A DNA stretch of 64,000 nucleotides from the NCBI GenBank assembly GCA_026401035.1, contig JAPLNR010000033.1:16227-80226 (forward strand). The letters are read 5' to 3'. Positions 1,959 to 43,434 of the stretch are shown here, one piece after another. The stretch's first letter is position 1; each line of letters starts with the position of its first letter. This DNA is from Planctomycetia bacterium (GTDB lineage: Bacteria > Planctomycetota > Planctomycetia > Pirellulales > UBA1268). The translations under genes and the position numbers were made by a program. The notes beneath the pieces are model-generated. The model was given only the letters and a program-made list of their open reading frames with translations, made no database searches and was not told the DNA's origin.

Positions 1959-4178
1959 TTACACCTCGGCAATGCCCAGTTCCGTCAGATAGTCATAAAC
2001 CCCCTCGTAGAACCCCGGGCTCCGTGTCTTGTCGCGCTTCGCCCCCGGCGGGACGAAGATCACCATCCCCTGCCGGGCCCGCGTGAGCAACACGCGGTAG
2101 GCGTTCTTCAGATACTGCCGCCGCTCGGGCTTCTTCACGTCCGTCCACTTCGCCCCGCGAAAGCTGTGGTAGCTCCAGTCGTCGCCCGACCAGCGTAAGT
2201 CGGCGTCCCACGTGACGATCGTCCAGTCGAGCTCCAGCCCCTGCACCTGAAACTCCGTCGCCGCGTCTTCGAGATAGAGCGACGAGCGGGTGTCTTTCGC
2301 GGGGCTCAGAAACCAGTGGACCGGGTCGATGTCTACCCGAATGTCGATCGCGTGGGGCTTGAGCCGCTGGGCCGACGAGGAGGCCACGAGCCCCGCCCGC
2401 TCCGTGCCCCGCCGCTGCTGGCGGATCCACCGCCGGGCTGCCCGCATGCTCCGGGTGAGCACGATGGGATACTGCTCGCGAAAGGCGGAGAAGAGCTCGC
2501 GGCACGACTCGGCTTCGCCGTCGAGCAGGGCTTTGACGAAGTGGGAGACGTGTTCGGCGCGGAAGGAACGCATCGAGGTGGCGAGGTGGAGGGAGGGGTT
2601 GGTGGAAAGGGTGCCAGGGGCGAAAAAGGAGCCAGCCACCATTTTCGTCGGGTCCAGCGGTGTGGATACGTCACTCGTGAAAATGGTGGCAGGCACCGTT
2701 TTCGCTTCCGTTTTCGCTCTCGATTCCGTGAGCCGAGCGAGGGCACCGGTGGCCGCATACTCGGAGTCGGTCAGATGCGGCGAAATGAAGACGTCCCACG
2801 CGGGAAATACGCTTCGCAGGCTCTCGAGCCACGCGCTGATCCCCGCCTCGCCCGTGTTGATCTCCTGGCCGCCGCCAACGAGACACACTACCACCGCCCA
2901 GTCGGCGTGACGGTCGAGCGCGGAAAGCAGGATGTCGGGCTCGGTCTGCGTGAACCCCGGGATGCCCTTCTTCCGCTTCATGAAGCTCGCGAGCTGCCGG
3001 GCATCCCACGCCCGCTGGGCCTCGTCAAACACCACGACGTGGTCGGCCGGCGCCGCGGGGCTGCGGAGGGTGTCGCTCCGGAAGTGATGAACGTTTTGAA
3101 TGAAGGCCTGCACTTTATTGCGGCAGGTGCCTTTGCGAATCGCTGAGTCTGTGAGCCGAATCCGGTCGTATTCGTCGCGGGCCAGGGCCTCGCGGAGCAC
3201 TGCCACCAGCGGGCCATTGCCCGACAGAAACACCGCGTGGGCCGTGTCGGTTTCCCGGCCATGACGCGTGGCCACGTTCAGCCCCACGAGCGTTTTGCCT
3301 GCTCCGGGCACGCCCGTCACAAACACGATTGCCTTCCGTCCCCGGGCCTTCGCATCGGTGATGATCCGCTCGATGCACTCGCTCGTGGCGGCGAGGTTCA
3401 CGGCCCCGGCGTCGCTGCGGGTGATGTCGTGCACCGTGTGGCGGGCGTAGAGCGACCGGGCCGCCTCGATGATCGTGGGCGTGGGGGAATAGGCGCCCGT
3501 GCCCCATGAAAAGGGGACGCAGCTCTTTTCCTGGGACTCCATTGGCGTCAACGAGCCATCTGAGGAAAAGAGCTGCGTCCCCTTTTCGGTGGCTTCGATA
3601 GCCAGGCGGATCCCGCGGCCGAGCGACTCGCCACTACAGCAAAACGGCGGGCGGACGCCGTCGGCGTGGGGCGGCTTCCAGCGGCGGTCGCTGTCGCCGG
3701 CTTCCGTGGCACAGAGAATCGGGAAGATCGGTGCGGCATGGCTCGGGGCGTGGAAGTTTTTGAGGTCGAGGCCGTAGTCCCAGGCCTGTTCGATGTCGAG
3801 CCGCTCGAATTTCTTCGCGCCCACCTTGAACTCGATCGGGATCACGCACTCTGGGAGCACGAGCACCGCATCGACCCGCCGGCCGAGCCGCGGGATGTCG
3901 AACTCGAGGTGGATCCAGGGGGAAAAGGGGACGCAGCTCTTTTCCTCGGAAAAGAGCTGCGTCCCCTTTTCCAATCCGGCCAAGGCCGCGCGGAGCACGG
4001 GCAGCTGCAGGTGCCACGCGGAGAGCTGCTCGGGGGCGAGCGTGTAGCCCTTGGGGGCGGCGAGCGGCGCATAGGCCTCCGCGTCGCTCGCGGCGAGAAA
4101 CTCGCTCACAGGTGCGGCGTAGAAGGCGGCATTGAGGCGCGGGCCGGGCTGGCCCGGGCCGACGGTCGCTGAGAACAT
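1959..4178 (-). CDS. DUF2075-type ATPase/helicase with N-terminal nuclease-like region; contains three in-frame palindromic repeat insertions
   Basis: Walker A VTGVPGAGKTLVGLNVA; C-terminal LTRARQGMVIFVPP...TRSPGFYEGVYDYL; N-terminal VLPECVIPIEFKVGAKKF resembles a PD-(D/E)xK nuclease. Start placed at MFSATVG; the ORF track extends to 4271. Confidence 0.8.
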   Translation of the reverse strand: MFSATVGPGQPGPRLNAAFYAAPVSEFLAASDAEAYAPLAAPKGYTLAPEQLSAWHLQLPVLRAALAGLEKGTQLFSEEKSCVPFSPWIHLEFDIPRLGRRVDAVLVLPECVIPIEFKVGAKKFERLDIEQAWDYGLDLKNFHAPSHAAPIFPILCATEAGDSDRRWKPPHADGVRPPFCCSGESLGRGIRLAIEATEKGTQLFSSDGSLTPMESQEKSCVPFSWGTGAYSPTPTIIEAARSLYARHTVHDITRSDAGAVNLAATSECIERIITDAKARGRKAIVFVTGVPGAGKTLVGLNVATRHGRETDTAHAVFLSGNGPLVAVLREALARDEYDRIRLTDSAIRKGTCRNKVQAFIQNVHHFRSDTLRSPAAPADHVVVFDEAQRAWDARQLASFMKRKKGIPGFTQTEPDILLSALDRHADWAVVVCLVGGGQEINTGEAGISAWLESLRSVFPAWDVFISPHLTDSEYAATGALARLTESRAKTEAKTVPATIFTSDVSTPLDPTKMVAGSFFAPGTLSTNPSLHLATSMRSFRAEHVSHFVKALLDGEAESCRELFSAFREQYPIVLTRSMRAARRWIRQQRRGTERAGLVASSSAQRLKPHAIDIRVDIDPVHWFLSPAKDTRSSLYLEDAATEFQVQGLELDWTIVTWDADLRWSGDDWSYHSFRGAKWTDVKKPERRQYLKNAYRVLLTRARQGMVIFVPPGAKRDKTRSPGFYEGVYDYLTELGIAEV
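2622..2703. repeat. REP-like palindrome (GAAAATGGTGGCAGGCACCGTTTTC family) inside the DUF2075 ORF
   Basis: Arms gaaaaaggagccagccaccattttc (2622-2646) and gaaaatggtggcaggcaccgttttc (2679-2703), imperfect inverted repeat. Confidence 0.75.
3508..3587. repeat. REP-like palindrome (GAAAAGGGGACGCAGCTCTTTTCC family) inside the DUF2075 ORF
   Basis: Arms gaaaaggggacgcagctcttttcct and aggaaaagagctgcgtccccttttc with ~30 nt loop; translated EKGTQLFSSDGSLTPMESQEKSCVPFS. Confidence 0.9.
3921..3972. repeat. Perfect 52-bp REP-like palindrome inside the DUF2075 ORF
   Basis: ggaaaaggggacgcagctcttttcc-tc-ggaaaagagctgcgtccccttttcc, 25-bp perfect arms; translated EKGTQLFSEEKSCVPFS. Confidence 0.95.
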
Positions 4179-4253: not shown

Positions 4254-4304
4254 TTTTGGCGTCGTTCCCAAATCCGATGCTCTCCCGCCTTGCCTCGACC
4301 CGGA

Positions 4305-4328: not shown

Positions 4329-4703
4329 ATGTGGCCGGTTGCGACAACCGATGTCTTCGATGAGTGGTTTGTGGCTCTAGGCGACGAGGAACGGGCGGAG
4401 ATCGAGGCCAAGGTCAACTTGCTGGAGCTCTTCGGCCCGACACTTGGCAGGCCACATGCCGATACGCTCAACGAGTCGAGGTACCGAAACATGAAGGAGT
4501 TAAGGGCTGACACCGCCGATCACACGCTGCGGATTGCGTTTGCCTTCGACCCCTCGAGAGCGGCGATCCTTCTGGTTGGCGGAGACAAACGCGGCCGATC
4601 GCAGCGGCCGTTCTACCGGCAGTTGATTGCCAAGGCAGACATGCTCTACGCCGAACATCTCGACAAGCTGAAGACGACGGCAAAGAAGCGCGGAGGCAAG
4701 TGA
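4329..4703 (+). CDS. RelE/HigB-type (phage Gp49-like) toxin
   Basis: Small ORF with RYRNMKELRAD...LRIAFAFDPSRAAILLVGGDKRG pattern, followed 1 nt later by an HTH antitoxin ORF. Confidence 0.8.
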   Translation: MWPVATTDVFDEWFVALGDEERAEIEAKVNLLELFGPTLGRPHADTLNESRYRNMKELRADTADHTLRIAFAFDPSRAAILLVGGDKRGRSQRPFYRQLIAKADMLYAEHLDKLKTTAKKRGGK

Positions 4704-4704
4704 C

Positions 4705-5031
4705 GTGGCAAAATCGTTTCGGGAACTCGTGGCACGAACGGGCACCGCCAAGACGCGGCGGATCGCGGCGCGGCGCACCCGGGAACTGCTTGCGGAGATG
4801 GTGCTCAGCGAGATCCGCGAGGCTCTCGGCAAGACCCAGAGCCAGATGGCAAAGGCCGCCGGCATGAAACAGCCGAGCTGGGCCAAGCTCGAAGGCCAAT
4901 CCGACATGATGATTTCGACGCTCCACAAGGTGATGAACGCCATGGGCGGCCAACTGGAAATCAACGTGCGTTTCCCACAGGGCCGAGTGCGGCTGAAGCA
5001 ATTCGGTCTCCGGCCTGTCGCGGCGAAGTAA
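4705..5031 (+). CDS. XRE-family HTH antitoxin (HigA-like)
   Basis: LGKTQSQMAKAAGMKQPSWAKLEGQSDMMISTLHKVMNAMGGQLEI is an HTH_XRE pattern; adjacent to RelE-type toxin. Confidence 0.85.
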   Translation: MAKSFRELVARTGTAKTRRIAARRTRELLAEMVLSEIREALGKTQSQMAKAAGMKQPSWAKLEGQSDMMISTLHKVMNAMGGQLEINVRFPQGRVRLKQFGLRPVAAK

Positions 5032-12965: not shown

Positions 12966-12989
12966 GAAAAGGGGACGCAGCTCTTTTCC
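12966..12989. repeat. Single REP arm GAAAAGGGGACGCAGCTCTTTTCC
   Basis: Exact match to the arm of the 3508 and 3921 elements, between the RNA ligase start and the tRNA. Confidence 0.85.
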
Positions 12990-13008: not shown

Positions 13009-13082
13009 TACCCCCGGCAGGGATCGAACCTGCGACCTGAGCTTTAGGAAAGCTCCGCTCTATCCAACTGAGCTACGGGAGC
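13009..13082 (-). tRNA. tRNA-Arg (anticodon CCT)
   Basis: Reverse complement GCTCCCGTAGCTCAGTTGGATAGAGCGGAGCTTTCCTAAAGCTCAGGTCGCAGGTTCGATCCCTGCCGGGGGTA folds as a cloverleaf; anticodon loop TTCCTAA. Confidence 0.95.
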
Positions 13083-31004: not shown

Positions 31005-32084
31005 ATGCCACTCCTCGAAATCAACAACCTCGTGACGGCGTTTCACACCCCGGCCGGCCGCGTGCCGGCGGTGGATGGCGTGTCGCTGTCGATCGAACGC
31101 GGGAAGACGCTCGGCCTCGTCGGCGAGAGCGGCTGCGGCAAGAGCGTGACGGCGATGTCGATTCTCCGGCTGGTGGCGTCGCCCGGCGTGATCGAGTCGG
31201 GCGAAATCCTGCTCGCCCGGGAGGGGGGCAGCGTCGATCTCACGCAGCTGCCCGAGCCGGAGCTCCGCAAGGTTCGCGGCGGTCGAATCGGCATGATCTT
31301 CCAGGAGCCGATGACGAGCCTCAACCCAGTGTTCACGATCGGGGATCAGATCGCTGAGGCCGTCCTGCTGCATCGGGCCGTTCCTCGGGCGGCCGCGCGG
31401 GCGCGGGCGCTGGAGATGCTGAAGCTGGTACGGCTGGCCGATCCCGAGCAGCGGCTCGACGAATATCCGCACCAGCTGTCGGGCGGCATGCGACAGCGGG
31501 TGATGATCGCGATGGCGCTGGCCTGCGAACCCGATCTCGTGATCGCCGACGAACCCACCACGGCGCTCGACGTCACGATCCAGGCGCAGATTCTCGAATT
31601 GCTCTCCGACCTGCGCCGCCGGCTGCAGACCTCGCTCCTGCTGATCACGCACGACCTCGGCGTGGTGGCCGAGACCTGCGACGAGGTGGCGGTGATGTAT
31701 GCAGGCCGGATCGTCGAACGCGCGCCGGCCGCGGAGCTCTTCGCCAATCCGCAGCACCCCTACACGATCGGCCTCCTGGCGGCCCGGCCGGCCACCGGCG
31801 TGCGTCACGAGGGTCCGCTGCGGACGATTCCCGGCATGGTGCCGCTGCCGCAGAACTTTCCAGCCGGCTGCCGGTTTCACCCGCGGTGCGCCTACGCCCG
31901 CCTGCCGCACTGCGCCGGCGACGTGCCGCCGCTGCGGGACATCCGCCCCCAGCACCAGGCCCGCTGCCACTACGCCGGCGAACTCGGTCCGGCAACGGGC
32001 GAAAAAGGGGACGCAGCTCATTTCCCGCATTTTTCAAACGCGGGAAATGAGCTGCGTCCCCTTTTTCCGGAGGGGGGTTCATGA
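31005..32084 (+). CDS. Peptide ABC transporter ATP-binding protein (OppD-like) with palindrome-encoded C-terminal tail
   Basis: [44 protein letters not shown]; tail [28 protein letters not shown] derives from the 32001-32067 palindrome. Confidence 0.94.
32001..32067. repeat. REP-like palindrome, 28-bp perfect arms
   Basis: gaaaaaggggacgcagctcatttcccgc-atttttcaaac-gcgggaaatgagctgcgtcccctttttc. Confidence 0.95.
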
Positions 32085-42483: not shown

Positions 42484-42493
42484 GCAGCCCTGA

Positions 42494-42524
42494 CGGGAAA
42501 AAGGTGACTGTCACCTTTTTCCCG
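42494..42524. terminator. Perfect palindrome in a convergent junction, possible bidirectional terminator / REP element
   Basis: cgggaaaaaggtgac-t-gtcacctttttcccg, between convergent pmbA-like (+) and BASS (-) genes, overlapping the end of the BASS ORF. Confidence 0.6.
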
Positions 42525-43434
42525 TCCTGGAGCGCCACCAGCCGGCGAGCAGGCTGCCGATCACGGAGTGTACGACGCTGGAGATCGCGCAGGGCACGGC
42601 GGTGAGCGGCTCGGCGGGAAAATGCTTCTGCGCGAGCACAACGCCAAGGCCAGAGTTTTGCATCCCCACCTCAATCGAGATCGTCCGCGCCACGATCCGG
42701 TCATAGCCGCAGCAGCGGGCGAAGAGATAGCCCACACCGAAGCCGATCGCGTGCAGGAGCGCGACTGCCAGGAGGAGCTGCGGGCCGCTGGCGCGGACGG
42801 CCGCGGCGTTTTGTCCGATGATGCTCGCGCAGACCAGCGCGATCGTGATCACGCTCACCAGCGGTGCGACGGGGAGCACGGCCCGCACGACCCGCGGCAG
42901 CCAGCGGTTGATCGCCACGCCCACCGCCACCGGCAGTACGACCACCTGCAAGGTCGAGAAGAAGAGCCCCCAGGCATCGACCTCGACGAGCCGGCCGGCG
43001 AGCAGTTTCGTCAGCAGCGGGGTGAGGATCACCGCGCCCAGCGTCGTGCAGGTGGTCATCACTACCGAGAGGGCGACGTCGGCCCGGGCGATGTAGGTGA
43101 CAACGTTCGAGGCCGTGCCCCCCGGGCAGCAGGCCACGAGCATCAGCCCCACCGCGAACGGCGTGTCGAGCTCGAGCGTCGTGGCCACGAGCCACCCGGC
43201 CAGGGGCATGATGAGAAATTGCGCGAGGAAGCCCGCGGCGACCGTCATGGGCCGCGTCGCCACCCGTGAAAAATCCTCGATCGAGAGCGTGATCCCCATG
43301 CCGAGCATGATCACTGCCAGCCCAACGACGATCGCCGCGCCGCGAAACCAGACGAACAAAGCCGGTTCGACGAGCGCCAGACCGCAGGCGGCGAGCACCC
43401 AGAAGGGAAAGGCATTGGCCAGACGGTCGAGCAT
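42511..43434 (-). CDS. Bile acid:sodium symporter (BASS) family transporter
   Basis: VACCPGGTASNVVTYIARADVALSVVMTTCTTLGAVILTPLLTKLL; ISIEVGMQNSGLGVVLAQKHF. Confidence 0.92.
   Translation of the reverse strand: MLDRLANAFPFWVLAACGLALVEPALFVWFRGAAIVVGLAVIMLGMGITLSIEDFSRVATRPMTVAAGFLAQFLIMPLAGWLVATTLELDTPFAVGLMLVACCPGGTASNVVTYIARADVALSVVMTTCTTLGAVILTPLLTKLLAGRLVEVDAWGLFFSTLQVVVLPVAVGVAINRWLPRVVRAVLPVAPLVSVITIALVCASIIGQNAAAVRASGPQLLLAVALLHAIGFGVGYLFARCCGYDRIVARTISIEVGMQNSGLGVVLAQKHFPAEPLTAVPCAISSVVHSVIGSLLAGWWRSRTGKR

Follow-up and report, generated by a model that had tools for sequence, protein, structure and literature searches.

A helicase gene in the planctomycete DNA analyzed here carries three palindromes that lie in frame and would be read as part of the protein. 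These palindromes are likely non-autonomous mobile repeats: inverted pairs of an arm that also forms the ends of RAYT genes, inserted widely and kept in genes where the reading frame tolerates them. The gene lies on the minus strand at positions 1959 to 4178 of the window, by which we mean the whole 64,000-nucleotide stretch that was analyzed, and encodes a 739-amino-acid Schlafen group 3 (DUF2075) helicase (Pfam PF09848, 2e-79). Its frame is open from position 4271, with the likely ATG start at 4178. The initial annotation had called a DUF2075/nuclease-like gene, which was right in substance: DUF2075 is now the Pfam family SLFN-g3_helicase, and a nuclease-like region lies N-terminal to that domain. 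The best PDB folds were SLFN11/SLFN14 and RecD, at low TM-scores.

Two of the palindromes belong to one family (F1, arm AAAAGGGGACGCAGCTCTTTT). The one at linker site 1 (3921 to 3972) has 25-nt arms with 100% complementarity around a 2-nt loop and encodes EKGTQLFSEEKSCVPFS (residues 70 to 86); the one at site 2 (3508 to 3587) has 25-nt arms of the same complementarity around a 30-nt loop and encodes EKGTQLFSSDGSLTPMESQEKSCVPFS (residues 198 to 224). The palindrome at site 3 (2620 to 2705; residues 493 to 519) is of a different family (F2, arm GGTGCCTGCCACC), with 27-nt arms that are 89% complementary and a 32-nt loop. All three had been reported in the initial annotation, the last as spanning 2622 to 2703, and its reading of a frame that stays open across each of them, yielding the three peptides it listed, was borne out. 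A whole-window scan found 7 hairpins, the three in the helicase among them; none turned up in any of 5 local shuffles. The idea that the site 2 spacer is original host sequence caught between two arms was considered, without clear support.

In an AlphaFold model of the helicase (mean pLDDT of 78.7), all three segments are predicted to be disordered loops or flexible linkers, with regular secondary structure on both sides of each insert. The pLDDT falls below 50 at residues 79 to 84 of site 1 (between a helix at 49 to 72 and a strand at 88 to 95), at 201 to 206 and 208 to 217 of site 2, and at 495 to 518 of site 3. The model thus places the inserts in linkers.

Orthologs of the helicase in three related genomes (77 to 89% identity) have open, intact frames. 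In the conserved blocks, dN/dS was 0.17 to 0.28 against the 89% ortholog and 0.10 to 0.15 against the 77 to 78% orthologs, from which the conserved parts of the gene appear to be under purifying selection and the gene itself maintained. Because dN/dS is 0.10 to 0.28 and pLDDT is below 50 at the inserts, the gene is best read as a maintained one with inserts in tolerant loops. A nonexpressed pseudogene had been raised at the outset as the circumstance under which frame retention would mean little, and chance retention, with the gene decaying or unexpressed, would be consistent with the broken and fragmentary helicase-family copies clustered in three genomes (G027:C19, G015:C306, and G008:C2); these copies suggest that the family has repeatedly duplicated and decayed. 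The window copy, however, is intact over 739 amino acids, its conserved blocks show the constraint just described, and UvrA and NuoL (below) follow the same pattern, which leaves chance retention highly improbable.

An alignment of 30 helicase sequences from many phyla, 25 of them distant rows, sets the window protein apart at each insert. Site 1 holds 17 residues in the window protein versus 1 in the distant rows (2 and 7 in two rows); site 2 holds 27 versus 9 to 10, and site 3 holds 27 versus 0, in all 25. As expected of insertion-free homologs, the distant rows are gapped at all three segments. Among the close orthologs, the sites are mostly hypervariable linkers, often with other palindromes, rather than clean empty sites. 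In the three close orthologs, the linkers are different, shorter, or otherwise filled. Site 1 holds an F2b palindrome in G008, and site 3 holds a GGTGTCAGGAGTCG palindrome in one locus (L109) and is empty, with closely similar flanks, in two others (L043 and L110). No obvious target-site duplication was seen in the one comparison of a filled with an empty site 3 (L109 versus L043). Degenerate palindromes suspected at site 3 in G018 and G012 were not significant.

The F1 arm is a repeated sequence in this genome and its relatives. It matched 7 times in the window versus 0 times in 100 dinucleotide shuffles, and 23 times at about 16 sites genome-wide, where a reversed control pattern gave 0. Single arms and inverted pairs both occur, with 45 arms in G029 and 24 in G022 beside the 23 in the window's own genome (G000). 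At most sites, two copies of a constant 21-nt arm stand in inverted orientation around a spacer of 2 to 46 nt; nearly every site has its own spacer length and sequence, and some spacers lengthen the hairpin. Within the window, a single F1 arm that is not known as translated (12967 to 12989, plus strand) adjoins a tRNA-Arg (CCT) gene at 13009 to 13082, 19 nt away, and a single REP-like hairpin of the F2b family (GGTGACTGTCACC, 17-nt arms; 42492 to 42526) is apparently intergenic, directly after a stop codon. The arms of F1 to F4 are stop-free in all six frames (shuffle probability of 0.015 to 0.09 each), and those of F2b and F5 have one stop. An excess of stop-free arms beyond chance is suggestive only, as the examples were selected and survivorship possibly contributes.

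The helicase is not the only protein into which such repeats are translated. A search of other ORFs for the arms, proposed in the initial annotation, placed F1 in frame in UvrA, NuoL, a short-chain dehydrogenase/reductase (SDR) protein identified by Pfam, and the C-terminus of an OppD/DppD-like ABC ATPase. In the last of these, the palindrome (32001 to 32067, plus strand; 32-nt arms and a 3-nt loop) forms a C-terminal tail of 28 amino acids in a gene that ends at 32084. For most close OppD-like homologs, the match runs from query residue 1 to about 168 to 172 of 199, the point at which the F1 tail begins. The stop codon lies within 20 nt of the palindrome and is overlapped by the ATG of the next gene. 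In UvrA, F1 falls in frame between the Pfam interaction and DNA-binding domains in G000, G022, and G014. Among 30 UvrA loci surveyed, 28 of which were read at the linker site, the same linker holds F3 in G013 and G029, F4 (AAAAAGGGGACATTCTGCTTTTT) in G066, and a single arm in G075; the rest have no recognized palindrome. In NuoL, F1 is present in G005 and G023, and in decayed form, still in frame, in G014. An unrelated GGGAGAGGGCCGGGGTGAGGG-type repeat occupies the same NuoL linker in frame in G001, G072, and G075 (L325, L357, and L358). A degenerate repeat of the GGGAGAGGGCCGGGGTGAGGG type was also seen in G004 (L324), in the linker otherwise used by F1. An example of a peptide inserted in UvrA or NuoL is GDAALFPTTSDGSAQEK. 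In all three proteins (helicase, UvrA, and NuoL), then, different palindrome families occupy the same linker across species.

Two-armed F1 sites were read in frame in 4 of 8 cases in this genome and in about 10 of 38 across all sampled genomes, fractions that derive from individually retrieved loci, count the same site in different species several times among the ten, and at many sites take coding status from a codon model. A first codon-usage scan was too weak to split coding from shadow frames, and a retrained model was used. Many long ORFs across F1 sites had no Pfam match and were treated as spurious or unresolved.

The arms connect these palindromes to a transposase family. A RAYT in G138, a genome of the same order and another family (L300), has the exact F1 arm at its two ends (AAAGGGGACGCAGCTCTTTTT / AAAAAGAGCTGCGTCCCCTTT), the sole instance encountered. 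Most full-length RAYTs of the family in relatives are bounded by F2- and F3-type inverted repeats: GGTGCCAGCCACC or GGTGCCTGGCACC (F2-like, with GGTGCC-type ends; L276 to L285) and GGTGTCAGGAACC and GGGGACGGGAGCG (F3; L229/L267). The F2 arm of helicase site 3 belongs to the families that bound RAYT genes in relatives, e.g., L278. The RAYTs matched Pfam Y1_Tnp above the cut-off and NCBIfam REP_Tyr_transpos below it; at E of ≤1 on L300, L229, and L226, Y1_Tnp was the sole confident Pfam domain, and a C-terminal HTH was not detected. The assemblies are metagenome-assembled genomes (MAGs), and in that of the window (94.5% complete) a search for an intact cognate RAYT returned a fragment only (G000:C82:113677), which resembles the GGTGCC-type RAYTs more than those of the GGGGAC type. 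Carriage of F1 by an intact RAYT of its own genome was accordingly rejected, subject to the incompleteness of the assembly. Because the same arms bound RAYTs in relatives and the window's genome holds only a fragment, F1 and F2 are, as judged from their sequences, non-autonomous RAYT-associated repeats, and a RAYT presumably moves them.

Placement among named element classes is partial. RAYT-bounding inverted repeats with many single and paired copies were found, but without an intact RAYT in the same genome; inverted-pair hairpins as in REPINs were found, but without a conserved spacer that spreads as a unit; and, as with Rickettsia palindromic elements, the palindromes are inserted in frame in working genes. 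The GGGGWSAS core is not fully matched: F1 (GGGGACGC) agrees at 7 of 8 positions, F1 and F3 (GGGGACGG) deviate at position 7, and F4 (GGGGACAT) deviates at position 8. A terminal unpaired GTAG or CGTC tag is absent from the arm sequences.

We favor a history in which arm pairs identical to the ends of a RAYT (an IS200-like Y1/HUH transposase) would have inserted at many places, presumably as single-stranded hairpins. Intragenic survivors would be those that kept the frame, were stop-free, and had landed in a flexible linker or at the end of a protein, positions at which 17 to 27 new amino acids would be tolerated; the helicase would have three such linkers, all of them filled in this lineage. 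Mobilization would then be by the RAYT, frame retention would reflect selective survival, and the peptides would be nearly neutral. Several findings count against this history: the F1 spacers are unique, although a REPIN that spreads as a unit usually retains its spacer; only a RAYT fragment was found in the window's genome; and the one RAYT with exact F1 ends comes from another family of the order. The unique spacers beside constant arms also fit a process in which existing palindromes fill the linkers through repeat-templated repair or gene conversion, with the arms of a resident palindrome rewritten in concert and genomic families overwriting it. Two UvrA comparisons point the same way. Between G013 and G029, whose flanks are 89% identical, alignable spacers make the insertion look inherited, yet the two arms have changed together (ACTGA/TCAGT versus AGCGA/TCGCT). 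Between G022 and G059, whose flanks are 95% identical, the linkers are completely different, an F1 palindrome versus none. These comparisons indicate that resident palindromes can be rewritten or replaced, and the concerted arms may stem from template switching or conversion. That, however, is one clear concerted case; the arms are exact RAYT ends, and helicase site 3, empty in L043 and L110 and filled in L109, fits de novo insertion. As the explanation for the filled linkers, conversion is therefore rather unlikely, although conversion and fresh insertion can act together.

Selection might instead have retained the peptides or the mRNA hairpins for a function (linker length, a translational pause, or a gyrase or nuclease site), so that the insertions are domesticated. 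The same linkers are hit repeatedly and inserts are retained across genera, as domestication would predict, but many relatives lack an insert at these linkers, and families, lengths, and peptides vary where one is present. The NuoL palindrome of G014, which is decaying while in frame, looks like tolerance, and we consider domestication improbable. Returning to insertion of RAYT-end repeats, a broader proposal can be made tentatively, at somewhat less than an even chance: that RAYT-TIR palindromes are a standing source of new protein linkers in this planctomycete family, with a few permissive ones in the SLFN-g3 helicase, UvrA, and NuoL repeatedly emptied and refilled by whichever palindrome family is active, both arms of a resident palindrome rewritten in concert, and mobile hairpins contributing more than point mutation to how these linker sequences evolve.

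In-frame intragenic REPs are already known. In a 2013 description (PMC3733652), GTAG/CGTC REPs occur in frame within genes, often repair genes including uvrA, and tolerance by flexible linkers is discussed; they are often inverted pairs that encode 20 to 30 amino acids. Two REP dimers are reported there in a Thioalkalivibrio uvrA, and each of the two uvrA genes of Opitutus terrae has a double insertion. The insertions in that description are mostly at different sites, with recB of two Xanthomonas as the exception. The planctomycete repeats are likewise short palindromic repeats or pairs in frame, in uvrA among other genes, with linkers suggested; they differ in that the arms are untagged and of the RAYT-TIR type, and in each of three proteins a given linker is occupied by one family here and another there. 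PMC3733652 also covers RAYTs whose flanking TIRs have a GGGGWSAS core, repeats that also form dimers. Most such TIRYTs are assigned to TnpA_REP subclass 2.1 in a later study (PMC6006769), which also reports REPs in frame within RAYT genes. Shared with TIRtrons/TIRYT (PMC3733652; PMC6006769) are an IS200-like Y1 gene bounded by inverted repeats with GGGGAC-like cores and pairs elsewhere; in contrast, the F1 core agrees at 7 of 8 positions, no C-terminal HTH was detected with Pfam, and intragenic TIR repeats do not appear in the accessible portions of those descriptions. In the subclass 2.4 REPs found inside RAYT genes, the frame is also kept in a peripheral variable region, but those REPs are limited to the transposase gene, whereas the planctomycete repeats lie in host genes (PMC6006769). 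Perfect inverted repeats in protein-coding genes are also described for Nematomorpha, where they are mitochondrial and animal (PMC6649704).

The initial annotation had likened the elements to Rickettsia palindromic elements. In both cases, palindromic repeats lengthen working proteins by peptide segments, and the analogy is fair; the host phylum is unrelated, though, and relatives of this planctomycete have a transposase with the same ends. RAYT-associated REP/TIR repeats explain the elements better. The interpretation of in-frame palindromic insertions is itself supported. Relative to the openly accessible literature, what is added is coding insertions of the RAYT-TIR type, their occurrence in planctomycetes, exact identity with a RAYT end, and recurrence of different families at the same linker. 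An element kind named "extragenic" thus appears to have been reshaping proteins in this planctomycete group. Coding palindromes are tied to a specific transposase family by end identity, outside the groups previously described, and form a natural series (the same linker, different families, empty and filled alleles, three proteins, and many genera) that allows a direct test of how protein sequence arises from inserted repeats, a long-standing question.

Two further features were observed near these genes. In most members of this planctomycete family, the open frame that contains UvrA is very long (about 2000 to 2200 amino acids; L238 to L266). The same stretch of contig holds another UvrA-like match, and the arrangement looks like a tandem UvrA fusion. 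Adjoining the helicase, positions 4329 to 5031 of the window encode a Gp49-like protein of the HigB/RelE type and, after it, a small ORF of helix-turn-helix-like character; the two probably form a toxin-antitoxin pair.
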